DNA of 64,000 nt from a virus. Shown here piece after piece: positions 2,551 through 52,023 of this stretch. The translations under genes and the position numbers were made by a program. A model generated the notes under the pieces. The model did no database searches. It was not told the DNA's origin and was given only the letters and a program-made list of their open reading frames with translations. Positions within the stretch are counted from its first letter, which is position 1, and every line of letters begins with the position of its first letter. The stretch is from the IMG/VR virus record IMGVR_UViG_3300028829_003504, positions 124,001 to 188,000 of that record. The stretch is one strand, 5' to 3'.

Positions 2551-3741
2551 TTATCCCAATTCAATTGCGAGTTCTTTAGCAGACTTTACCAAGAATCTTA
2601 CCATAGTATCTACAGGTACGTTTAAATACTCAGATAGTATAGGCATAAACTCGTCGCGTGTTTTTTCCTCAATAAAGTCCACTCCAGTTTTTATATCCGC
2701 TTTGATTAATTGTTTTTTCCTCAACCAACGATCGAACCCATCAACCTGTCGGCCAACAACGATCAATAGTAGTCTAGATTTGCGGAGCCTTGACTTACGT
2801 GAACTTACAGGGCAGGCTAGTATACTGTGAAGTAATTGGTCTATCGACATACTGAATTCACGGTGTGCTATGATATCGCGGCTGGGTTCGATACATCCCA
2901 TTTCATCATAAGTTCTAGTATCGTCCCCGTTCTCACCGCCAGTACTTAATCGCATCTGACTTTCGGAAGAAGTACGTTGAACAAACACCGCACCTTCTTG
3001 ATTATCAGTACCTACATTAACTAAGCGTTGCCTACTTTCCGAAGTATAATGCTTAATCATGTTTATCCTATGATTCGACATCGATGCACGTAAGCGATTA
3101 AGGTGGTGCTCGTAGCTAACTTCATTAGGACTATAGTAGTAATGCGTTTTCAGGGCATGAGCCACCAAGTCTGTAGTGAATTCGTCGCGGTCAAAGTTCT
3201 CTGACTTAACGACAAAAGATAGTTTACGTACAGCACGTTTAGCGTGAGTATTTAACTCGTCGATCATGGATGTAAAAGTATCGCACATTTCGAAATAGGC
3301 TTCAGGTGTTACCGACTCAGATTTAATTACCTTCACTTTAGCTGAGTTAGCTATACTAGCCCTAACACCACGCCTTCCTAATATCCAGTAGATGGCCTCC
3401 GCGTCTTCTTCGTATACTTTATATTTTCTAGCCATTGCATGAGTACTGTCCTCACATAATGCTTTGCTAGTCTTACATAGGTGTAATACGAAGAATTTTA
3501 GGCAAGACATAGTATAACCAGATTCACGTAACGCTAGACGGAATTTACTTGCGGTGATTCTTAGTTCTTTAAAGTTAACTACTGCTCCCAACTTCTTATT
3601 GAAGTTCGCATAGTCAACAGAGTTGACGCAGTATCGTAAGCACAACTCAAAAGAATCTTCAAATTCCTCCGACTGGTAATCTACGTTTAGTATCTCACAT
3701 AAAAGGAAGGACAAACTTGATCTGTTTTTTATTAGTTCCAT
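2551..3741 (-). CDS. Possible sigma-70-like protein
   Basis: The frame is open upstream to 3855, but the ATG at 3741 is chosen because a TAAGGGAGG Shine-Dalgarno sits just before it and the preceding gene ends at 3758. The 396-residue product has, around residues 190-245, a helical segment (DLVAHALKTHYYYS, then a YEHHLNRLRASMSNHR stretch) that resembles the layout of sigma region 2, and a basic C-terminal third. The resemblance is weak and no region 4 helix-turn-helix could be confirmed. It could instead be an unrelated DNA-binding protein. If real it would be the second sigma-like gene in the window beside the one at 43.5-44.5 kb. Confidence 0.4.
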   Translation of the reverse strand: MELIKNRSSLSFLLCEILNVDYQSEEFEDSFELCLRYCVNSVDYANFNKKLGAVVNFKELRITASKFRLALRESGYTMSCLKFFVLHLCKTSKALCEDSTHAMARKYKVYEEDAEAIYWILGRRGVRASIANSAKVKVIKSESVTPEAYFEMCDTFTSMIDELNTHAKRAVRKLSFVVKSENFDRDEFTTDLVAHALKTHYYYSPNEVSYEHHLNRLRASMSNHRINMIKHYTSESRQRLVNVGTDNQEGAVFVQRTSSESQMRLSTGGENGDDTRTYDEMGCIEPSRDIIAHREFSMSIDQLLHSILACPVSSRKSRLRKSRLLLIVVGRQVDGFDRWLRKKQLIKADIKTGVDFIEEKTRDEFMPILSEYLNVPVDTMVRFLVKSAKELAIELG

Positions 3742-3757
3742 TGACAACACGCCTCCC

Positions 3758-4627
3758 TTAAAGCATATCGTTAAGTTCAATAGTACCTTTATTGGAGGTT
3801 TTTGTTTCTTTCTTTCTATACGATTTGTTCTTGACCCAGTTACCTCCAGCCACATCGCTTGCGAAGTCTGTAAGATCGTATGTGCGTTTTGATTTTTTAG
3901 CAGGCTTGTGTCCGTTAACTTTCATGACATCTGACATACCGACTACCATACCATCAAGTGACTCACTAGGCATTGCGGACAAATCGAATTCGTCAAGAGG
4001 TATAATAGATTTAGAAGTATTACGCTCTATATCAGGGTCGGTATGACGCCCCTTACTAACCATTAAATCTTTAAGTGGTTTGAAGTTTTTGCTACTATAG
4101 AGACTAGGCCCATTAAGTCCTGTATTCTCGTAAGATAAAGTGTAACGGCGCTCACGGGGATCGGCTGCAAATAGTTTGACTTCGTGATCATTTGCATATA
4201 AAACATAAGCACTCATGAAGTTACTAACGTAGTTAGACTTCTGGGTACCTCTATACCGTACGTAAACACGTTGGCCGAATGAGTAGCCATGTTTTCGGGT
4301 TTCGCCTTCTTGTAGAAACAAAGAGGCTACTAGTTTGAATTTCTCAGGAGGTACGCGGCGCATAATCTGACGTATGAAGGTAAACACATCTTCAAATGCG
4401 TCTCCTTCCATATCAAGCAGGGAAAATGCGTCGGGTTTAAATTTGGGGCAGGCTTTCTTAACTTCGTCCATACCTTGTTCAGAACATGAAGTGTTACTTC
4501 CATCAATTAACGCTTCTCTGTTAAGACCGACACAATCACCACAGTTTAGTAGCCCTGTTGTGATTTTTCTTGTTGGGAAGTTTTTTGTTATGTCTTGTGG
4601 TCTTATGTTCTCTGCAACTTTTGTCAT
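3758..4627 (-). CDS. Hypothetical protein with N-terminal Cys cluster
   Basis: A 289-residue protein with four cysteines near its N-terminus (about 29, 32, 48, 60) that could bind one zinc ion. The C-terminal 60 residues are basic. The chosen ATG overlaps the upstream HNH gene by about 90 bp, an unusually long overlap for this genome. The next in-frame ATG lies some 50 residues in and would remove part of the Cys cluster, so I keep the longer form. AAAGG precedes the ATG. No enzymatic motif is recognised. Confidence 0.7.
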   Translation of the reverse strand: MTKVAENIRPQDITKNFPTRKITTGLLNCGDCVGLNREALIDGSNTSCSEQGMDEVKKACPKFKPDAFSLLDMEGDAFEDVFTFIRQIMRRVPPEKFKLVASLFLQEGETRKHGYSFGQRVYVRYRGTQKSNYVSNFMSAYVLYANDHEVKLFAADPRERRYTLSYENTGLNGPSLYSSKNFKPLKDLMVSKGRHTDPDIERNTSKSIIPLDEFDLSAMPSESLDGMVVGMSDVMKVNGHKPAKKSKRTYDLTDFASDVAGGNWVKNKSYRKKETKTSNKGTIELNDML

Positions 4628-5075
4628 GGGGTATACCTTTATTATTTAATGTGAATTCAACACAGTACTTAACTAGATTAGATAGGTTAGTAATACCTTC
4701 TGATTTCAGATCTAGTTTAAGTATATCAATTGCGATTCTGAGCTGGCGTGATGCCTTAAACCCAGGAACCAATATAAGCTTATCCTCCTGAGAGACGGGA
4801 GGATTTAGCATAGAAGACAGTAAGACATTAAACCATATATCGGCTCTTTGCTCACAATCTGCTTTAATCCAGTACCTTTGCTTCGGCTGCTTACCACTTC
4901 CTTTAAGTAACGCGTAATAAGCATCCGCCTTGTGGTGAAGTGTATCATGGCAATCTCCACACAAGGGTATCTGAATACTATCCTCTCCGCCAAGTGAACG
5001 GGGAATCGTATGGTGCCAGTTTATGGTAAATGTCTTGTCATTACAGATAAGACATTGTTCTGACTTAGCTCCCAC
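4536..5075 (-). CDS. HNH endonuclease
   Basis: A 179-residue protein starting at GTG. The first 50 residues carry an HNH/zinc-finger nuclease core: C8-x2-C11, WHHTIPRSLGGEDS (His21/22 and the central Asp region) and CGDCHDTLHH (C39, C42, His47/48). The two CxxC pairs would hold the structural zinc and the histidines the catalytic metal. The rest of the protein is unassigned. Such genes are common in large phages as homing or free-standing endonucleases. It overlaps the next gene by about 90 bp, which could reflect insertion or a wrong start. Domain assignment is good; the cellular role is unknown. Confidence 0.85.
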   Translation of the reverse strand: MGAKSEQCLICNDKTFTINWHHTIPRSLGGEDSIQIPLCGDCHDTLHHKADAYYALLKGSGKQPKQRYWIKADCEQRADIWFNVLLSSMLNPPVSQEDKLILVPGFKASRQLRIAIDILKLDLKSEGITNLSNLVKYCVEFTLNNKGIPHDKSCREHKTTRHNKKLPNKKNHNRATKLW

Positions 5076-5084
5076 GAATCAATA

Positions 5085-6404
5085 TCACTTAGTAGGTTTG
5101 GATAGTTTGGCTTTACTCTGCCAAGGGAGTCCCCAACGCAATATCTTCATATTACCGCCAGTTAAAGAGGTCATGCGTCTATATAGCATTGTCGGTATAA
5201 ACCAATACATGACTAAATCAGAGTTCTTCGGGTTAGTCATAGGACTGCCCGTTATCAACGTGTAGTCGTTAGAACTCCGTGAACTTAATTCTTCCACAGT
5301 GTGCTGTGCGGTTGTAAACAATACGCTGCTTGGATCTAGTACACGTTTCTCTCTGGCCTTTAGTCTGCGTGAAGCATCTTTCTTCTGGTTATCAAGTTCA
5401 GCATGTTTGTCCTGTACGATCTTCAATTCTTTCTGAAAAGCTTTTAGGCTATTCATTACCTCACGAAGTAGTTCAGGAGTTTTATATAAATTCTTAGCTA
5501 AAGTATCAAAGTTAATACCTTGCTCCGATTCCATACGCTCAATGAATTTGGCTTGCTGGTCTTTAGTTTTCTTATTGAAGAGTTGGGCGATTTGGCTTTG
5601 CTTGGCTTTAATCTGTCTATTAAGATTACGCCTCATAGTTCCGTTCTTTTTAGAATCCGATGTTTCTTTGTATTCATCAAATTCTTCTTGCGCTAGTTCC
5701 ATTGCAGCCTTCTTACTAAACATAAGTAAGTTTTGGTTTTCAAAAACAACCATAGCCGTAGCACCTGCATAGTCCTTGCCGGAACTAATTCGATTAAACG
5801 GAATGCCTAATTTCTGCAATGTATTTGAACGCATGAACGCAGCCTGTTCGAACTGGGACATGACGGGGAGTTCTATGACTTGAATACCACCAGGGTTTCT
5901 CAACTTAGAAGGTATTTTATTTAGATACTTAGAACGGTATCTTTGGAATAGATCTTTAGTATCGCCTGAGCGTTCTTGATCTCGCTCTTGTCGGTTCTTG
6001 TCGAGCAAGTCGGCAAGTTCCTCGGAGCCTTTACCTGAATTAGATTCAGCAATCAATTTCTGATGGTTTAGGTAATTGGTGTGTAAAGTTTGCGCATCAT
6101 CAATAAATTCAGTTAACTTCCCACTAACCATAATTTTCATTTGAGCAAACTTCAATTCTTTAGATTGAACTCCATCTTGAATACCTTTAACGACATTCAA
6201 GGTATTCTTTAACTTTTTACGTATACCTGAGATAGAAGGAGTTTTTCCAGTTGCAGATAGAAATGACTCGATACTTTCTACGGTTGACGCGGTTGCTTCC
6301 AACATAACTTGGCGACCCTTAAGAGGATTGCTTTTGTCTAATGCTTGAGACTGGAAGGCTGTAACTGCTGAGATTACCTCAGCGATGTTTTCGTTAATAC
6401 TCAT
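5085..6404 (-). CDS. Hypothetical coiled-coil protein, 439 aa
   Basis: A largely helical, highly charged protein with long stretches rich in Lys, Glu and Gln (about residues 230-370) typical of coiled coils. A less charged region near residues 170-230 contains GGIQVIELPVMSQFEQ. No Walker, nuclease or membrane motif is visible. It starts at ATG 6404 with AGGGA upstream and is followed closely by the HNH gene. About 135 bp without a gene separate it from the next gene upstream, so it may head its own transcript. Function unknown. Confidence 0.8.
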   Translation of the reverse strand: MSINENIAEVISAVTAFQSQALDKSNPLKGRQVMLEATASTVESIESFLSATGKTPSISGIRKKLKNTLNVVKGIQDGVQSKELKFAQMKIMVSGKLTEFIDDAQTLHTNYLNHQKLIAESNSGKGSEELADLLDKNRQERDQERSGDTKDLFQRYRSKYLNKIPSKLRNPGGIQVIELPVMSQFEQAAFMRSNTLQKLGIPFNRISSGKDYAGATAMVVFENQNLLMFSKKAAMELAQEEFDEYKETSDSKKNGTMRRNLNRQIKAKQSQIAQLFNKKTKDQQAKFIERMESEQGINFDTLAKNLYKTPELLREVMNSLKAFQKELKIVQDKHAELDNQKKDASRRLKAREKRVLDPSSVLFTTAQHTVEELSSRSSNDYTLITGSPMTNPKNSDLVMYWFIPTMLYRRMTSLTGGNMKILRWGLPWQSKAKLSKPTK

Positions 6405-31621: not shown

Positions 31622-32665
31622 TTAAGAATGGGTAATGATTTTTTGTTTTACGGCCTGTAGATAAAGTTGACCGCTAGCTAAGTTTTTGGCCTTGGCCTCA
31701 CACATGATATCGAATTCAGGTAAAAATGAAAGGGCCCAGCTATTCATTCTTTTATTACCGAACAACATACTGTGGGCACGTAGTTTAGTTTTTGGGAAAC
31801 CCATAGAGATAAGTTCGTCAAAGTTGAACATTCTATTTCTAGGTAATCCTAAAGTGTACTGCTCTTTACTATTTGAATAATGGATTGTAGGTCTTTTTCC
31901 ACGCCAACTGTCTTTTATGTACTTTAACCTCCCATCAGTAGATCTTATATATTCACCTTCACTGTTAATCCAATGGTGATGAATATCTAATACCAAGCCA
32001 ATTTTCTTATACAAAGGTAGCAGGTCATCTATACTGGCTCCAAACTCGTCGTTTTCTAAAGTAATAACTCTACGGGCTTCAGGTGACAGTCTGCTATAGG
32101 TCCGTTTAAACTCAGGTATTCCACCCCGACCAGATAGATGCACATTGACCTTCATGTCCAACTTCTTCTTTGCAAAACCTAAATATTTACAAATGTCTAC
32201 ATGATGCTCAAATTCCAATAGGGACGATGATACTACTTCAGGTTTATCGGAAGCTAGAACCGTAAACTGACCTGGATGGAAAGATAACTTAACGTTCAGT
32301 CTACGTGCAAGGTCCCCTACAGGTTTAAGATTATCGGATAGATACTTCTGTACATCGGGTTTATCATAGAACCAAGACCACGTCCTGTGTGTTGCGCCTG
32401 GACATATACTTGAACCTAGGCGCAACATACGTAGTTGTTCTGGGTACTCAGATAACTTGCGTACTAAGTTACGTATGGCTTTACAGTTGTTTTGCATAAT
32501 CTCATATAGACGGTCCTCTGCAATACTCTTGTTTTCATTTAACCATTTTATAGTAGTGCTCTGGAACCTGTAAGGTTTTACCCAACGCTCGGATTCTGCT
32601 TTAGATGAAGCTTGTGCTTCTACATCGGGAGGTAACTCGTACACGCACGCAAATCCAATCTTCAT
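31622..32665 (-). CDS. uvsE: UV damage endonuclease (UvsE/UVDE)
   Basis: A 347-residue TIM-barrel endonuclease that nicks 5' to pyrimidine dimers, starting alternative excision repair. Family signatures are visible: LRLGSSICPG (82-90), LSFHPGQFTVLAS (127-139), VNVHLSGRGG (174-182), TLENDEFG (202-209) and LDIHHHW (226-232), which supply the metal-binding His, Glu and Asp residues. AAGGA precedes ATG 32665. Phage-encoded repair of this kind would help virions damaged by sunlight; T4 solves the same problem with the unrelated DenV. Confidence 0.92.
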   Translation of the reverse strand: MKIGFACVYELPPDVEAQASSKAESERWVKPYRFQSTTIKWLNENKSIAEDRLYEIMQNNCKAIRNLVRKLSEYPEQLRMLRLGSSICPGATHRTWSWFYDKPDVQKYLSDNLKPVGDLARRLNVKLSFHPGQFTVLASDKPEVVSSSLLEFEHHVDICKYLGFAKKKLDMKVNVHLSGRGGIPEFKRTYSRLSPEARRVITLENDEFGASIDDLLPLYKKIGLVLDIHHHWINSEGEYIRSTDGRLKYIKDSWRGKRPTIHYSNSKEQYTLGLPRNRMFNFDELISMGFPKTKLRAHSMLFGNKRMNSWALSFLPEFDIMCEAKAKNLASGQLYLQAVKQKIITHS

Positions 32666-40775: not shown

Positions 40776-42296
40776 TTAATCTTCTTCGTCCGCAACTAGG
40801 TCACCTTTACCTGCACAGATAAGAGCGAAATTCTTGAGAGCTTTACCATTCGCCAATTGCTTCTTACACCAGAAGCGTATATCAACAGGCTTAACACCAA
40901 GTAAGTCGCAAGTTTCTTTTACCTGTCGCTTGTTACCTAACACCAGTGCTTTGAATGATAACCAAGAACACTTCTTAGCTCCGTGTAAGGGACAATCTTC
41001 GTGGAATTTCATATTACCACGAGTACCGCCTACTACGCCTAACATCTTCAAGAAGTTCCAAGTATCAAACACTGGATCTAGGCCTCTAGCCACACCATCA
41101 GCATCACGAATCCAGATACGTGCAAATGTATCTTGATACTGTAGCCCGCCAAGTTTGTTCTTGATAACTTTCAAGTTGATGAAACGATATTCGTCGTTTC
41201 CTTCGTGCTCAACAGACTTCTCATCCATAGTAGGACCTTTACCCCAACCTGAAGGTAGAGCACGGCTGGTAGATTTTATTCTACAGTCAGAGAAGAATTT
41301 CAACGCTTCACCTCCCGGCTCATACTCAGGATTACCAAACATAGTCGCAGGCTTCTGTCGTAATTGATTAACCCCAAATACTGTCATGCGTTTCTTCTTC
41401 ATAGAACCTTTAATGCGTTTAAGTTCTTTGGAGAACATCCGCGCTTGCAGGGCCATTGCATTGCTACCTTCGTCCGTATCTTCTTGCCTAGGTAACATAG
41501 CAGGATAGGAATCTAGTAGCGCGATTGCTTGCATCATACCATCTGCGGCAGGCACTTTAATTTTGTTATGCTTAGATAAGTACTTAGGGTCATATACAGA
41601 TTTGAATCGCTTGAGTAATTTCTTATCATGAGGGAACAAATAGTAATACTCTTTGCCTAATTTAACTTTATCAGGTAGTATTCTTTTTAGTCGATTATAG
41701 AATTCGAAAAATTCCTCGCCTCCATCAGTGGAGATATAATCAACGATCGGAGGTGTAATTTCCTCACCTGTATCGGGGTCTCTCTCTCCGAAGATTTGGC
41801 TCAACGTTTGCTTAACGCCTTGTGATTTTAGAATACTCTCAATGTAGTCAGGGCTACCTGAACCTTCGTAATCCCAGTAGCTGGCTTTACCCTCAAAGCC
41901 TTGTTTAATTATAGCTGACATTATTGTCATAGCTATTGTTGTCTTAGCGGATTGTTCACCACCAAAGATAGTGTACCAGCCACCTGATACGATACCACCG
42001 CCTATTAATAGATCAAGTGATACTAAACCTGTATGTAAACGAGGTTCGTCTGGGTCAAAAGCTGTACCTGCAAGACCCATCTTCTTCTTAACGTCTGTAA
42101 TGGATTCATCTAACATGTTTTCCAATAGAGATTTCGTTAAGGCGACTGCCTCTGAATGAGCGTTATCTGCAACTAAGGTAGCTTTATCGGAATTCTTGGC
42201 TTTCTTAGTTTTAGGAACATCAGCAACCTCAAGAGCCTTTTTGGCTCCTTTAGTTACTTTGGCTGATTTAGATCTAGTCGCTGTTTTAGTTGCCAT
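40776..42296 (-). CDS. recA: RecA/UvsX-type recombinase
   Basis: A 506-residue strand-exchange protein for recombination-dependent replication and repair. The core starts near residue 75; LVSLDLLIGGGIVSGGW leads into Walker A FGGEQSAKTT (111-120), where the Gly before the catalytic Lys is Ala, a loosened P-loop comparable to T4 UvsX. A long insertion and Lys-rich first 45 residues are extra. A GVNQLRQKP segment matches the RecA L2 region (G-x-NQxR). It follows the ssDNA-binding protein gene by 4 bp, a natural functional pairing. No strong ribosome site is seen, so translation may be coupled to the upstream gene. Confidence 0.9.
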   Translation of the reverse strand: MATKTATRSKSAKVTKGAKKALEVADVPKTKKAKNSDKATLVADNAHSEAVALTKSLLENMLDESITDVKKKMGLAGTAFDPDEPRLHTGLVSLDLLIGGGIVSGGWYTIFGGEQSAKTTIAMTIMSAIIKQGFEGKASYWDYEGSGSPDYIESILKSQGVKQTLSQIFGERDPDTGEEITPPIVDYISTDGGEEFFEFYNRLKRILPDKVKLGKEYYYLFPHDKKLLKRFKSVYDPKYLSKHNKIKVPAADGMMQAIALLDSYPAMLPRQEDTDEGSNAMALQARMFSKELKRIKGSMKKKRMTVFGVNQLRQKPATMFGNPEYEPGGEALKFFSDCRIKSTSRALPSGWGKGPTMDEKSVEHEGNDEYRFINLKVIKNKLGGLQYQDTFARIWIRDADGVARGLDPVFDTWNFLKMLGVVGGTRGNMKFHEDCPLHGAKKCSWLSFKALVLGNKRQVKETCDLLGVKPVDIRFWCKKQLANGKALKNFALICAGKGDLVADEED

Positions 42297-46167: not shown

Positions 46168-46608
46168 TTACTTATCGTGAGTCATCCATTTCAACCCTTC
46201 TAGAGTATCGTGCAATTTAAACAATCGAGTCTTAGTGCCTTCTTTTGTTTCACCTACGATATAAAGATTAGCGCTGTAATTACTAGGTACCTTATCTTTA
46301 ATCTGTTTAAGGGAGGCATAAGATTTCTTACCTTTCTTCTTACCCTTATACAATGAGTAGGAAGAATACTTTTCGCCCAACCAGCTCTTAACAATCTCAA
46401 GCATTTCATCAGGATATTTGTACTGCATCTCCTCGTCATTCAAACGATAGAACATCGTGTTTGCACCGCCCTTACCGACTAGGTAAGTAACGCCAGCAAC
46501 AGTTGCTAAGAACTGCCACTGGAAAATCTTTCTTTCTTCGGGAGTCAATGAAGCTTCTTTAAGTAAAGCTCCTTTCACTTGGTCATGTAGTACTTTAAAT
46601 GGATTCAC
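46168..46608 (-). CDS. Hypothetical protein, 146 aa, GTG start
   Basis: Starts at GTG 46608 with AGGCGG upstream, 14 bp after the asparagine-synthetase-like gene. A basic segment (LYKGKKKGKKSYASLKQ) sits in the middle. Not recognised. Position suggests it belongs to the modification operon. Confidence 0.65.
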   Translation of the reverse strand: MNPFKVLHDQVKGALLKEASLTPEERKIFQWQFLATVAGVTYLVGKGGANTMFYRLNDEEMQYKYPDEMLEIVKSWLGEKYSSYSLYKGKKKGKKSYASLKQIKDKVPSNYSANLYIVGETKEGTKTRLFKLHDTLEGLKWMTHDK

Positions 46609-46622
46609 GTTACCGCCTGTAG

Positions 46623-47510
46623 TTACAATAGTTCTTTTGGTATTTTACCTAACCGAACATCGTTATATATCGCAACTACTGATTTAGAGTTTCGTATATT
46701 CCAGTCAGAGCTAAGTAGTTTATCGCTAAAGTTGTCTGCGATGTTAGTATCACCTAATTGAAAGTTCTGGTGAGGCTTAACTATACATTTTTTCAAGTCA
46801 TCGGCAAAGGCTTCACGTAACTGGCGTTTCTGAGGCTTGTGCATCTCCTCGTAAGTCCCGACCGATAACATTTCTGCCCACACACGGCAAGTAGTGAAAG
46901 GTATGTGGAAGATTTTATCTTTCTTGTAAGCCAAGTTCTGGAAGAAAGTATTTTGAATCTTTACGTCACCGCGAAAGTTAGATTGCCAGTACTTCTTAAC
47001 AATATCTTTGGCGTGCATACTAGGTTTCTTAGCAGTGGCGAAGTAGATATCTGAATCAAAGCCAACTACAATATGCTTTGCTGGGCAGTTACGTACTGCT
47101 TGCATCATAGGCCAGATACATTCAATTGAACTTTTCTTAATAAGACCTAACTTACCGACAGCATGTTTAACCCAACTCTTTAGGTGTTTCTCGGAAGAGT
47201 TTAAAATAACTGGATTAAACTCCAAGCCGTAAACTTCTGAGGCATGTTTAGCTGCTTTGAAGTCGGTACTTTCATGTGTGTCTAAAGTAAACGAAGTGAT
47301 TAATGGGCGGTGTCCTAGAGCTAGCATGGCCCATAGTACCGCGTGGCTATCCATACCGCTAGACATAAATACGGAAGTACTTTGTGTAGTAGGTATAGGC
47401 CGCAGGGCACTCATTAATGCCATCTTCATGTCAGCAGGGCGAGAGCAGTTGTCCTCAAGCTCTTGTCTAAACTTCTCTCGCATCTTTTTTGTGCTTTCTG
47501 ATATAGCCAC
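46623..47510 (-). CDS. Asparagine-synthetase-like PP-loop ATPase
   Basis: A 295-residue protein starting at GTG 47510 (AGGAG upstream). It corresponds to the C-terminal synthetase domain of AsnB-type enzymes: PP-loop VFMSSGMDSHAVLW (47-60, variant of SGGxDS), SFTLDTHESTDFKAAKHAS (adenine-binding strand), and HIVVGFDSDIYF, at the place of the GxGxDE segment. The glutaminase domain with Cys2 is absent, so it would use ammonia or another amine. Family chemistry is carboxylate activation as acyl-AMP followed by amide formation. Beside a cytosine methyltransferase and a carboxy-SAM synthase-like gene, amidation of a DNA carboxylate is the suggested role (inference). Confidence 0.75.
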   Translation of the reverse strand: MAISESTKKMREKFRQELEDNCSRPADMKMALMSALRPIPTTQSTSVFMSSGMDSHAVLWAMLALGHRPLITSFTLDTHESTDFKAAKHASEVYGLEFNPVILNSSEKHLKSWVKHAVGKLGLIKKSSIECIWPMMQAVRNCPAKHIVVGFDSDIYFATAKKPSMHAKDIVKKYWQSNFRGDVKIQNTFFQNLAYKKDKIFHIPFTTCRVWAEMLSVGTYEEMHKPQKRQLREAFADDLKKCIVKPHQNFQLGDTNIADNFSDKLLSSDWNIRNSKSVVAIYNDVRLGKIPKELL

Positions 47511-48548: not shown

Positions 48549-49325
48549 TTATTTGATGCAGACCCAGCCTGCGAAGTTTAAATGACGATAGAAGCAATCG
48601 ATGTTCTTAAAGCCCGCAAGCGTTAACATTTCCTCATTGGCTCTAGCGGTTTGCGGAACAAGAACGCCTTCGAGTGAGGCTTTCTTGCGATCAATATCTT
48701 CGTAAGAATAACCATTACTGTGTTTCATTTTATGATACTCACCGACAAATAATTTGTTCAATCTACTACCACTACCTAGAATCTTCTCCACAAAGATAAA
48801 GGCTCCGCCGACAGGTAAGGCATCATAGATATTCTGAATGATTTCAAGTCGGTACTCTATAGGAGTAAACTGGATAGTTAGTATAGAAAGAATCAAACCA
48901 TGCTTCTCAGGCCAACCTATAGTTTGAGGACACTGAAAAATATGAGGCTGCCTCAAATCATCTCGATACACTTCAACGTTTCGGTTCTCAATGAAACGAT
49001 CGTCAAGCTCGGTCAGCATAGGCTCAGATATCTCAATAGCATAGCAGCCTATAGTAGGGTCTTTAGTGAACGGGGCGAGTGCTTCACCTCGACTAGCTCC
49101 TAGATCAAGGACAGTACGTAGACCGAAGTTTGAGCGGTTTTGCTCTGCTCTAGGTAAAGCATTCAATACGTCCATACCTAACTGGTAAGTCAGACTACGC
49201 ATCATGTCGTAGCTAGGTATACTACGTGATAGCATGTTATCAAAAGATTGTGCAACATCCTGGTTAAACTCCCACTTGTCGCCTGGGACGTGCGTATCTT
49301 CTCGGACTTTGGGTTCGTCTTTCAC
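48549..49325 (-). CDS. CmoA-like carboxy-SAM synthase / SAM-binding enzyme
   Basis: A 258-residue class I SAM-fold protein from GTG 49325 (AAGGAG upstream). It aligns along its whole length with CmoA: the RSIPSYD stretch before the fold, motif I VLDLGASRGEAL (72-83), LSILTIQFTPIEYR (146-159, CmoA NFTLQFLEPSER), GGAFIFVEKI (173-182), HKMKHSNGYSYEDIDRKKAS and CFYRHLNFAGWV. CmoA makes carboxy-SAM from SAM and prephenate. Its carboxylate-binding Arg199 falls on Lys215 here, flanked by Arg213 and Lys214, so a basic residue is kept. No CmoB is encoded nearby; the neighbouring methyltransferase is the obvious user. Confidence 0.75.
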   Translation of the reverse strand: MKDEPKVREDTHVPGDKWEFNQDVAQSFDNMLSRSIPSYDMMRSLTYQLGMDVLNALPRAEQNRSNFGLRTVLDLGASRGEALAPFTKDPTIGCYAIEISEPMLTELDDRFIENRNVEVYRDDLRQPHIFQCPQTIGWPEKHGLILSILTIQFTPIEYRLEIIQNIYDALPVGGAFIFVEKILGSGSRLNKLFVGEYHKMKHSNGYSYEDIDRKKASLEGVLVPQTARANEEMLTLAGFKNIDCFYRHLNFAGWVCIK

Positions 49326-49438: not shown

Positions 49439-49804
49439 TTACCAGCTATCTTTATAGGGGTTTTCCGTTTCAGTCAGGTCATACTTAGATAGAGGGACTT
49501 CATCGGATAGGTAGGTAATAGGGTCTCTTAAAATACATAATACACTTCGAGTAACGTAATCTGACACAGGTGTGGCTGCTTGAAGTATGTACCCTCCTGA
49601 GTCAATCTGTGCGCCTGTATAGGTCGAGTAGTTAATACTGTTTTTAAGTCGCTCAACATCTAGTGCGAACTCAGGATCAGTAACGGTATCCCGTTTGTGG
49701 TCAAAAGCCATGTGCGTACCAAGCTCAATCAAACGTAAACCTAATATCTTAGATCGCTCTCTGCTATAGAAAGGTAGAATTAGATTCTTGAATAGTTTAA
49801 GCAA
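49439..49804 (-). CDS. Hypothetical protein, 121 aa, TTG start
   Basis: The frame starts at TTG 49804, overlapping the preceding small membrane gene by 8 bp. No good ribosome site is visible, so it may be translated by coupling. Not recognised; it sits inside the modification operon between the methyltransferase and the CmoA-like gene. Confidence 0.6.
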   Translation of the reverse strand: MLKLFKNLILPFYSRERSKILGLRLIELGTHMAFDHKRDTVTDPEFALDVERLKNSINYSTYTGAQIDSGGYILQAATPVSDYVTRSVLCILRDPITYLSDEVPLSKYDLTETENPYKDSW

Positions 49805-49937: not shown

Positions 49938-51002
49938 CTATATACCCTTACCGCTTACGGGGCCTTTAGTATAGTCTAAACCACAGCCATCGGCAATAAC
50001 CTTAAGCAGATTGTTGACAATCTCTTTAGTTATACAGTACATCATTTGCGGAGGTACGGAACGACCAAGACGCTCCCATTGCTGCTCATACGTACCTATT
50101 AACTTGAAGTCTTCCGGGAAACCGCACACTACCTTCAATTCTTCGATCGTGTACTTACGCTGTACGCCCTCAAACGTCTCGATAAACCCACCAGAACTAA
50201 ACTGAGCCGTAGGTGAAGTAGCACCGTCACTAGCCGTAATGGTAGGATGAGGAACTTGCGCAGTAGCCCAGTTAAGGGTTCCTCCGGCTTCTTTAGATCT
50301 AAGCATAGCGATGTGCGGCAGTTTCTCCTGCACAGTAACCTGTCTGTGTGCAGGTTTAGGGAACACAGGCTTCAAGTCGTACTTCTTAGCAAGGTCTTTT
50401 CTGATGCCGACGTAGATTATACGTTCACGCCCTTGAGGAACACCTAACCAAGAACCGTTTATCTTTGCAGCACGTACAACGTAACCGCATTCAGCAAGCT
50501 TACCAGTTATTTCTTTGAAGTAACCTTTAGCATCACCTTTAATAAGGCCAGTAACGTTTTCTGCTACGAACACCCAAGGCTTTAAACCTTTTAACTCACG
50601 GCAGAATTCAAAGAACAAATCGTCTACACGTTGCTTAACGCCTTCTGAGTAATCCTTTGCTTCGCCCCATCCATCTTCACGAGTACCTGCTGTAGAGAAC
50701 GCACTGCATGGTGGGCTTCCGTCAAGAAAAGGTAAGTGTCCTTTCTTTATTCCTAAAAGCTTCAATACGTCGGAAGGTTTAACCTTTCGGATGTCTGAAC
50801 CATCGCAGAAGCTTTTAACGTGGTTGGCTTCATACGTTTCACGCGCAACGGGAATAAATTCGTTAGCGTATTTTATATCAATACCCGCCATTTTGTGCCC
50901 TGTACAAGAACCACCACAACCTGAGAAGAAACTTGCTCCTAAGAACAATTTCTTCTTCTTGTTTATCTGCTTCATTGTAGGAATCGTAGGAGGAAGTTTC
51001 AT
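49938..51002 (-). CDS. DNA cytosine-C5 methyltransferase with altered motif X
   Basis: A 354-residue enzyme from ATG 51002, whose ATG overlaps the TGA of a small upstream gene. Motif I FFSGCGGSCTGHKMAG, motif IV LDGSPPCSAFSTAG (catalytic Cys99), motif VI VAENVTGLI (Glu148), motif VIII GVPQGRERIIYVG (190-199) and motif X LGRSVPPQM are all present. The target-recognition region (PHPTITASDGATSPTAQFSS) is short, so the recognition site may be short or relaxed. Motif X normally reads GNxV; here the cofactor-side Asn is Arg314. I recall that a basic residue at this Asn in M.MpeI allows use of carboxy-SAM. A CmoA-like gene lies 600 bp downstream. The product may therefore be 5-carboxymethylcytosine rather than 5-methylcytosine (inference). 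Confidence 0.9.
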   Translation of the reverse strand: MKLPPTIPTMKQINKKKKLFLGASFFSGCGGSCTGHKMAGIDIKYANEFIPVARETYEANHVKSFCDGSDIRKVKPSDVLKLLGIKKGHLPFLDGSPPCSAFSTAGTREDGWGEAKDYSEGVKQRVDDLFFEFCRELKGLKPWVFVAENVTGLIKGDAKGYFKEITGKLAECGYVVRAAKINGSWLGVPQGRERIIYVGIRKDLAKKYDLKPVFPKPAHRQVTVQEKLPHIAMLRSKEAGGTLNWATAQVPHPTITASDGATSPTAQFSSGGFIETFEGVQRKYTIEELKVVCGFPEDFKLIGTYEQQWERLGRSVPPQMMYCITKEIVNNLLKVIADGCGLDYTKGPVSGKGI

Positions 51003-51115
51003 ATAACCCAACCTAGTTTCGTTTGAATTTGAATAAGAGTATAGTTAAATATAATAGATGCCTGTTCCATAAGAGTAAGCATCAATATAATCTCTTGTAT
51101 ACATATATGCGGCAT
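50999..51115 (-). CDS. Small protein, 38 aa, coupled to the methyltransferase
   Basis: ATG 51115 is preceded by AGGAC at good spacing, and the TGA overlaps the methyltransferase ATG (ATGA). The product (MPHICIQEIILMLTLMEQAS and on) is hydrophobic. The overlap suggests that its translation sets methyltransferase expression, as a leader peptide would. Confidence 0.5.
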   Translation of the reverse strand: MPHICIQEIILMLTLMEQASIIFNYTLIQIQTKLGWVI

Positions 51116-51132
51116 AATATGTCCTATTAGAA

Positions 51133-52023
51133 TTATTTACCTGCGAAGCGGTACTTACATCGAGGACAACACTGATCAAGTTCATCATCAAATGTATCCT
51201 CACCGTATTCCTCAAATGAGGCAGGACCTTTACCTTTTGACTTAGAATCAGTAGACTCGTCACTGGAACCTAGTGAAGGTAACTCGGGAAGTGTTTTAAT
51301 TTTAAGGGCGTCAAGCCCCATAGTATCGATATCAAACCCTCCGTCGCGTATTTCAAGTTCTTCCACCATGAAAGCAAGTTTACTATTGTCGAACTCACCA
51401 CCATGTGCGTTAGCTGCAATGTTTGCGGCGAATTCTACTTTCTTATCGGACCAGTCTACTACGCGGAATGGAATACGGTAGTTTCGATTATCTCCTAGAA
51501 TAACAGTCATGAATCCTTCTTCGATAGTACCGTGCTGGCAATCTTTAATAGGATTAGTTATGATTTTAGTCTCATAACCTTTCTTCCTGATACTAGAAGT
51601 ACGTTGATGTCCAGATACTAAGTGGCCTGAACGTCGGTTAAAAACGATACCTGACAGGTCACCGAATTCTTCGTATGACTTACCTAAGTTATCTAATCTA
51701 CGTGCAGTAATGAAACGTGGGTTATAGCTCGCACCTCTTAAGTCAGTTAGGCCCCAATCTCCTTTACGTTTAGAAGTCTTCTTATTCTCCCGAACCTTCT
51801 TAACTTTAAATTTCTTTGTGGCTACTTTTGATATACCTGATATCTCAAGTGAACCAGAAGCAGAAGTGGACCCAGACTTAGGTTTAACTATTTTATCCAG
51901 TTTCCCTGATTTCTTGGCCTTTTTAGTCTTTTTAGCTACTTTAGACTCAGAGGTAGCCTTAGATTTCTTTGTTAATTTCGCAGCTTTCCCTCTAACAGCT
52001 ACTTTCGTTTCTTTCTTTGCCAT
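51133..52023 (-). CDS. ParB/sulfiredoxin-fold domain protein
   Basis: A 296-residue protein. The first 85 residues are a Lys-rich tail. Residues 93-190 match the ParB N-terminal fold: ASYNPRFITARRLDNLGKSY, EFGDLSGIVFNRRSGHLVSG and the GHQR box (138-141), which in this fold binds nucleotide. The C-terminus has CCPRCKYRF (C285, C286, C289). ParB-like proteins are often encoded beside DNA methyltransferases in phages and have been proposed to be nucleases or DNA-base kinases. It opens the putative modification operon, behind a hairpin and an AAACTGTAAA element. Confidence 0.85.
   Translation of the reverse strand: MAKKETKVAVRGKAAKLTKKSKATSESKVAKKTKKAKKSGKLDKIVKPKSGSTSASGSLEISGISKVATKKFKVKKVRENKKTSKRKGDWGLTDLRGASYNPRFITARRLDNLGKSYEEFGDLSGIVFNRRSGHLVSGHQRTSSIRKKGYETKIITNPIKDCQHGTIEEGFMTVILGDNRNYRIPFRVVDWSDKKVEFAANIAANAHGGEFDNSKLAFMVEELEIRDGGFDIDTMGLDALKIKTLPELPSLGSSDESTDSKSKGKGPASFEEYGEDTFDDELDQCCPRCKYRFAGK

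Follow-up and report, generated by a model that had tools for sequence, protein, structure and literature searches.

The window analysed here, 64,000 nucleotides of viral DNA (positions 124,001 to 188,000 of IMG/VR record IMGVR_UViG_3300028829_003504), encodes a predicted C5-cytosine (carboxymethyl)transferase of the CmoX type. We are highly confident in reading its gene as the cmoX homologue of a jumbo phage, working in a CmoA to CmoX to CmoY pathway of cytosine carboxymethylation and amidation. Judging from its sequence, the enzyme very probably adds a carboxymethyl group, not a methyl group, to cytosine. The motif-X arginine signature is already in print for another phage (December 2025), and the window enzyme is one more member. 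What is new here is an extra DUF1611 gene within the carboxymethylcytosine cassette.

The CmoX gene and its motif-X arginine

The chemistry is known from Synechococcus phage S-B43, whose CmoX was identified by Yang et al. (Nat Commun, December 2025) as a DNA cytosine C5-carboxymethyltransferase with 5-carboxymethylcytosine as its product (PMC12783734). The enzyme has been crystallized with carboxy-SAM (Cx-SAM; PDB 8YF3), and its Arg350, which replaces HhaI Asn304, binds the carboxymethyl group of Cx-SAM (PMC12783734). Cx-SAM is supplied by the phage CmoA, while CmoY ligates glycine, and the glycine amide is present in phage DNA (PMC12783734). The same study counted 5,615 candidate CmoX sequences, which are often adjoined by CmoA, ligase, and ParB genes (PMC12783734).

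The window gene is located at 49938..51002 on the minus strand and specifies 354 amino acids from an ATG at 51002. The open reading frame reaches beyond this to a TTG at 51011 (49938-51011, -); from the ATG, the protein begins with MKLP, as does S-B43 CmoX. It matches the C5-methyltransferase family PF00145 (E 6.5e-45), and the virus record (261,788 bases) yielded no other C5-methyltransferase. By sequence, its best solved relative is 8YF3, with an E-value of 2e-60 versus 6e-23 for the next, and 8YF3 is also the top Foldseek match (E 9e-28) of its AlphaFold model (pLDDT 88). The preliminary description had drawn attention to motif X, which it read as LGRSVPPQM with arginine in place of the conserved asparagine, and this reading is borne out. 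The motif occupies 50043..50069 (-), and the arginine codon is CGT at 50063-50061. The arginine is residue 314 when counted from the ATG, in agreement with the original numbering, and residue 317 from the TTG. Arg314 stands at the position of M.HhaI Asn304 and is aligned with both Arg350 of S-B43 CmoX (8YF3; GRMVPP) and the asparagine of HaeIII (GNAVP). In the alignment, the reported Cx-SAM contacts F25, E47, F48, D69, and R350 are all conserved as F26, E48, F49, D70, and R314, the first four of them invariant, and the nucleophile C98 of S-B43 corresponds to C99, within an SPPC motif that is invariant.

It had also been proposed that a basic residue in motif X marks a Cx-SAM-dependent carboxymethyltransferase, with M.MpeI named as a precedent. 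For the S-B43 homologue, this is established by biochemistry, crystal structure, and phage DNA (PMC12783734), and the precedent agrees with the M.MpeI N374K variant in the same paper. Alternatively, the window enzyme could be an ordinary SAM-dependent C5-methyltransferase that tolerates the arginine, with CmoA having some other purpose, as its fold and most of its motifs are those of a C5-methyltransferase. However, the arginine sits at the Cx-SAM carboxylate-binding place of 8YF3, wild-type S-B43 CmoX accepts Cx-SAM and not SAM (PMC12783734), and near relatives without CmoA carry Asn, Met, or Leu at the motif-X position. Together, the arginine, its contacts, and the link to CmoA make a plain SAM enzyme very improbable. 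The arginine alone does not define the cofactor, since the R350N mutant of S-B43 CmoX uses neither SAM nor Cx-SAM (PMC12783734) and so gains no use of SAM; inactive with both cofactors, it also indicates that putting Asn back in place of Arg would not necessarily bring back methylation.

Co-inheritance of the arginine and CmoA

The sample of viral relatives was made up of the 80 IMG/VR loci closest to CmoX together with phage records, and the control of 80 IMG/VR loci closest to Asn-type relatives within the CmoX set. This gave 162 relatives in all, control loci included, and 141 distinct ones once identical copies were removed. Among these 141, a CmoA-like gene is found within 6 kb of 103 of the 109 Arg-type enzymes and of none of the 32 Asn/Met/Leu-type enzymes. 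The preliminary description had named equal frequency of the arginine without a CmoA-like neighbor as an outcome that would speak against it, and these counts (103/109 versus 0/32) mean that the two are not equally common. CmoA was called with a six-sequence profile whose weak matches might be other methyltransferases, yet the control loci gave none, and 100 of the 103 CmoA-positive loci score above 40 bits, with 3 being weak. The 6 Arg types that lack a CmoA within 6 kb are 4 Alexandravirus-type phages and 2 short contigs (L062 and L094). In the Alexandravirus-type genomes examined (AD1, locus L007; SNUABM_20, loci L012 and L013), CmoA is approximately 15 to 17 kb from CmoX. When the set is clustered at 90, 70, and 60% identity, CmoA is beside 80/88, 43/47, and 22/26 Arg types, respectively, and beside zero non-Arg types (0/10 at 60%). 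Profile scans were needed for such searches, as single-sequence scans of viral contigs returned 1 locus for CmoX and 0 for DUF1611.

The trees place one to three changes between Arg and non-Arg types, so Fisher values overstate the link between Arg and CmoA, and the pattern is one of tight co-inheritance, not of many independent trials. In a smaller balanced tree, the Arg type falls on one side of a branch with a support of 80. The idea that Asn types are revertants of Arg types came from one tree and was dropped when it vanished in the smaller balanced sample. Since all close relatives with a CmoA neighbor have the arginine, its presence in the window enzyme is not due to chance or a misread frame. 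The motif-X arginine is thus confirmed on another phage, with matched controls, as a usable sequence marker, by which carboxymethyltransferases can be separated from methyltransferases in unannotated genomes.

The surrounding cassette and its DUF1611 gene

The cassette is arranged as ParB-CmoX-CmoA-DUF1611-CmoY plus a small protein. The predicted CmoA-like Cx-SAM synthase (48549..49325, -; 258 aa from a GTG start) had been described as approximately 600 bp away from CmoX, and indeed the CmoX stop codon and the upstream end of the CmoA-like gene, at 49325, are 612 bp apart. It matches phrog_4752 (E 2.5e-58), falls under the NCBIfam equivalog cut-off for CmoA (TIGR00740; E 5e-29), and matches the CmoA structures 1IM8 and 4GEK with E-values of 6e-19 and 1e-16. 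The homology to CmoA is full-length, and by sequence comparison we take the protein to be a divergent CmoA. In E. coli CmoA, Arg199 binds the carboxylate (PMC3663124), whereas the window protein has Lys at this clamp position. Across 117 aligned rows of CmoX-linked CmoAs, this position holds Glu 76 times, Arg 29 times, and Lys 5 times, while Lys198 just before it is near universal; the E. coli row used for numbering agrees with the 4GEK chain at the Arg199 site. The proven active CmoA of S-B43 has Glu here, so the Lys is no argument against function of the window protein, and, to judge from the alignment, Arg199 does not seem to be a defining residue of phage CmoA. It could be argued that the window CmoA serves host tRNA wobble modification (cmo5U) and stands beside the methyltransferase incidentally, as bacterial CmoA makes Cx-SAM for tRNA and the phage encodes at least one tRNA (tRNA-Lys). 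Across viral loci, however, CmoA goes together with Arg-type CmoX, and no member of the CmoB family was found in the virus record, which makes a tRNA role exceedingly unlikely.

The predicted CmoY (46623..47510, -; 295 aa) is an AMP-forming amide ligase-like protein with an asparagine-synthetase-like ATP-PPi domain, an SSGMDS ATP motif, and no glutaminase domain, encoded near CmoA and CmoX. It matches phrog_26038 (E 5e-85), to which the asparagine-synthase-like protein of Pseudomonas phage PaBG also belongs. The conserved small protein (46168..46608, -; 146 aa) is a homologue of PaBG gp307 (phrog_23597), and its family occurs near CmoA/CmoY in 18 loci; its model (pLDDT 81) gave no PDB fold match at E<=0.001. 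Adjoining CmoX is a protein with a ParB-like DNA-binding domain (51133..52023, -; phrog_620, E 6e-25), in line with the ParBc neighbors reported for CmoX (PMC12783734). Between CmoX and CmoA is an ORF of 121 aa (49439..49804, -) that had no Pfam or PHROG match and no match in related loci apart from the window, and its membership in the cassette is uncertain. Elsewhere in the window, an endonuclease-like gene (phrog_8420; 31622-32665, -) is found approximately 8 kb away from the gene of a UvsX-like recombinase (40776-42296); the closest matches of this recombinase come from the jumbo phages NCTB and JA29 and from Erwinia phages.

In the proposed pathway, phage CmoA would use SAM and host prephenate to produce carboxy-SAM. 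The CmoX nucleophile Cys99 would attack C6 of the flipped cytosine, and the carboxymethyl group would be moved from carboxy-SAM held by Arg314 to form 5-carboxymethylcytosine in phage DNA. CmoY would then activate the new carboxylate with ATP and couple an amine; the DUF1611 protein may be the source of this amine or modify it further, for example by N-acylation. DNA modified in this way may be shielded from host nucleases. The CmoA, CmoX, and CmoY steps have been shown for the S-B43 homologues (PMC12783734). For the window phage, homology, residues, gene order, and co-inheritance are the observations; its activity, the choice of amine, the sequence specificity, the step assigned to DUF1611, and the protection of the DNA are what we infer. 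Counted against this reading are the sub-cut-off score of the window CmoA with its Lys at the Arg199 position and, in the alignment, the 24% identity of the window CmoY to that of S-B43.

The DUF1611 protein (PF17396 and PF07755; 47521..48534, -) is related to DgcN and has 337 aa from its ATG; the ORF is open to a TTG at 48597, a start that would overlap the end of cmoA. It scores above Pfam gathering for both PF07755 (166.5 vs 25 bits; E 7e-49) and PF17396 (32.9 vs 22.6 bits). It also matches PDB 7XRJ (E 1e-54), with which the P-loop and many other columns are invariant. The match to NCBIfam DgcN (NF041892; E 3e-88) reaches 295.7 bits, below the equivalog cut-off of 480. The DgcN substrate comes from D-glutamate metabolism. 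By its NCBIfam name, DgcN is an N-acetyltransferase of this metabolism, and the chemistry is also described in PMC12363236 and PMC10845958. The 34 phage records with relatives of DUF1611 are all from Erwinia and Dickeya phages, and each of the nine IMG/VR relatives found (9/9) shares its gene run with CmoA and CmoY.

A direct role for the DUF1611 protein in the modification pathway is possible, although we would place it somewhat short of an even chance. Tentatively, the protein, with a racemase-like enzyme in some phages, may make or acylate an amino-acid-like amine, perhaps a D-amino acid, for CmoY to attach to 5-carboxymethylcytosine. If true, the DUF1611 step would lead to a base modification unlike the glycine amide, the one described to date. 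In Yang et al., the words DUF, racemase, and acetyl are absent from the main text (PMC12783734). A competing view of this step alone is that DUF1611 is an unrelated metabolic passenger between cmoA and cmoY, for instance from D-glutamate catabolism, which we consider only slightly less likely than a direct role. In at least 33 of 80 loci, bacterial relatives adjoin DgcA-like genes of the enolase superfamily (identified by eye from sequence), in keeping with such a passenger. In the tree, one branch (100/97) sets the phage proteins apart, although the branches are very long, so these proteins may go back to a single acquisition; their common position would then need explaining once and may not be independent evidence. 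On the other hand, the consistent company of CmoA and CmoY in the IMG/VR loci speaks against a passenger, as does the CmoA-DUF1611-CmoY order common to two divergent groups, the window phage and the Alexandravirus-type phages (in AD1, DUF1611 is at L007:5016-6071). No DgcA-type or alanine-racemase gene was found in the record of the window phage, and some relatives add an alanine-racemase-like gene at the same spot. This gene stands between DUF1611 and CmoY in SNUABM_20 and four IMG/VR loci. SNUABM_20 (L013) encodes in succession a 420-aa protein (3034-4296), DUF1611 (4293-5327), and the alanine-racemase-like gene (5324-6259), and in SNUABM_34, a 420-aa protein likewise precedes DUF1611. Extra cassette genes may vary the amine decoration, and DUF1611, racemase-like, and oxygenase genes are possible sources of varied 5-carboxymethylcytosine decorations. 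PaBG, AD1, Alexandra, Y3, and TurkishDelight are isolated phages in which the chemistry could be checked directly.

Comparison with known systems

The engineered M.MpeI N374K (as cited in PMC12783734) resembles the window CmoX in having a basic residue for the motif-X Asn, but it is an engineered enzyme that carries Lys, not Arg, and targets CG. The S-B43 system shares the CmoX fold, the SPPC nucleophile, the motif-X Arg, and the Cx-SAM contacts, along with a neighboring CmoA and an asparagine-synthetase-like ligase. The window differs from S-B43 in gene order, the adjacent ParB gene, and the added DUF1611 and 146-aa proteins, and identity is approximately 43% for CmoX and 24% for CmoY. On the DUF1611 side, DgcN (PDB 7XRJ, NF041892) has the same fold family and P-loop, but the window protein is approximately 35% identical, falls below the cut-off, has no DgcA partner found, and is encoded in a DNA-modification cassette.

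PaBG (O152_gp306-310) has ParB, CmoX, CmoA, the small protein, and CmoY in one run, for which the annotations go no further than DNA cytosine methylase, tRNA methyltransferase, and asparagine synthase. Identities to the window proteins are 48% for ParB, 55% for CmoX, 44% for CmoA, 35% for the small protein (146 to 150 aa), and 29% for CmoY. The order ParB-CmoX-CmoA-CmoY is common to both; unlike the window, the PaBG run is without DUF1611, and its small protein stands between CmoA and CmoY, whereas that of the window follows CmoY. The other PaBG genes of the cassette region are unmatched in the window. In Erwinia phage Y3 and Salmonella phage Sen-NF, an oxygenase gene follows cmoY instead (L010:6152-6790 and L009:8877-9524, respectively); that of Y3 is of the 2OG-Fe(II) type, and both are candidates for a different decoration. 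In Streptomyces phage TurkishDelight (L262:2678-6696), a single run comprises ParB, an Arg-type CmoX, a protein with a glutamine-amidotransferase domain, and CmoA.

In the Alexandravirus-type CmoX, an intein-like insert directly follows the catalytic SPPC (L004:8986-11115, L007:21987-24116, L012:986-3115). These Erwinia/Dickeya jumbo phages (Alexandra, AD1, and SNUABM_18/20/34) are like the window in their CmoA-DUF1611-CmoY order, their small protein, and an Arg-type CmoX beside ParB. They are unlike it in that CmoX bears the insert and is encoded approximately 15 to 17 kb away, and in that some of them add the 420-aa protein and the alanine-racemase-like gene.
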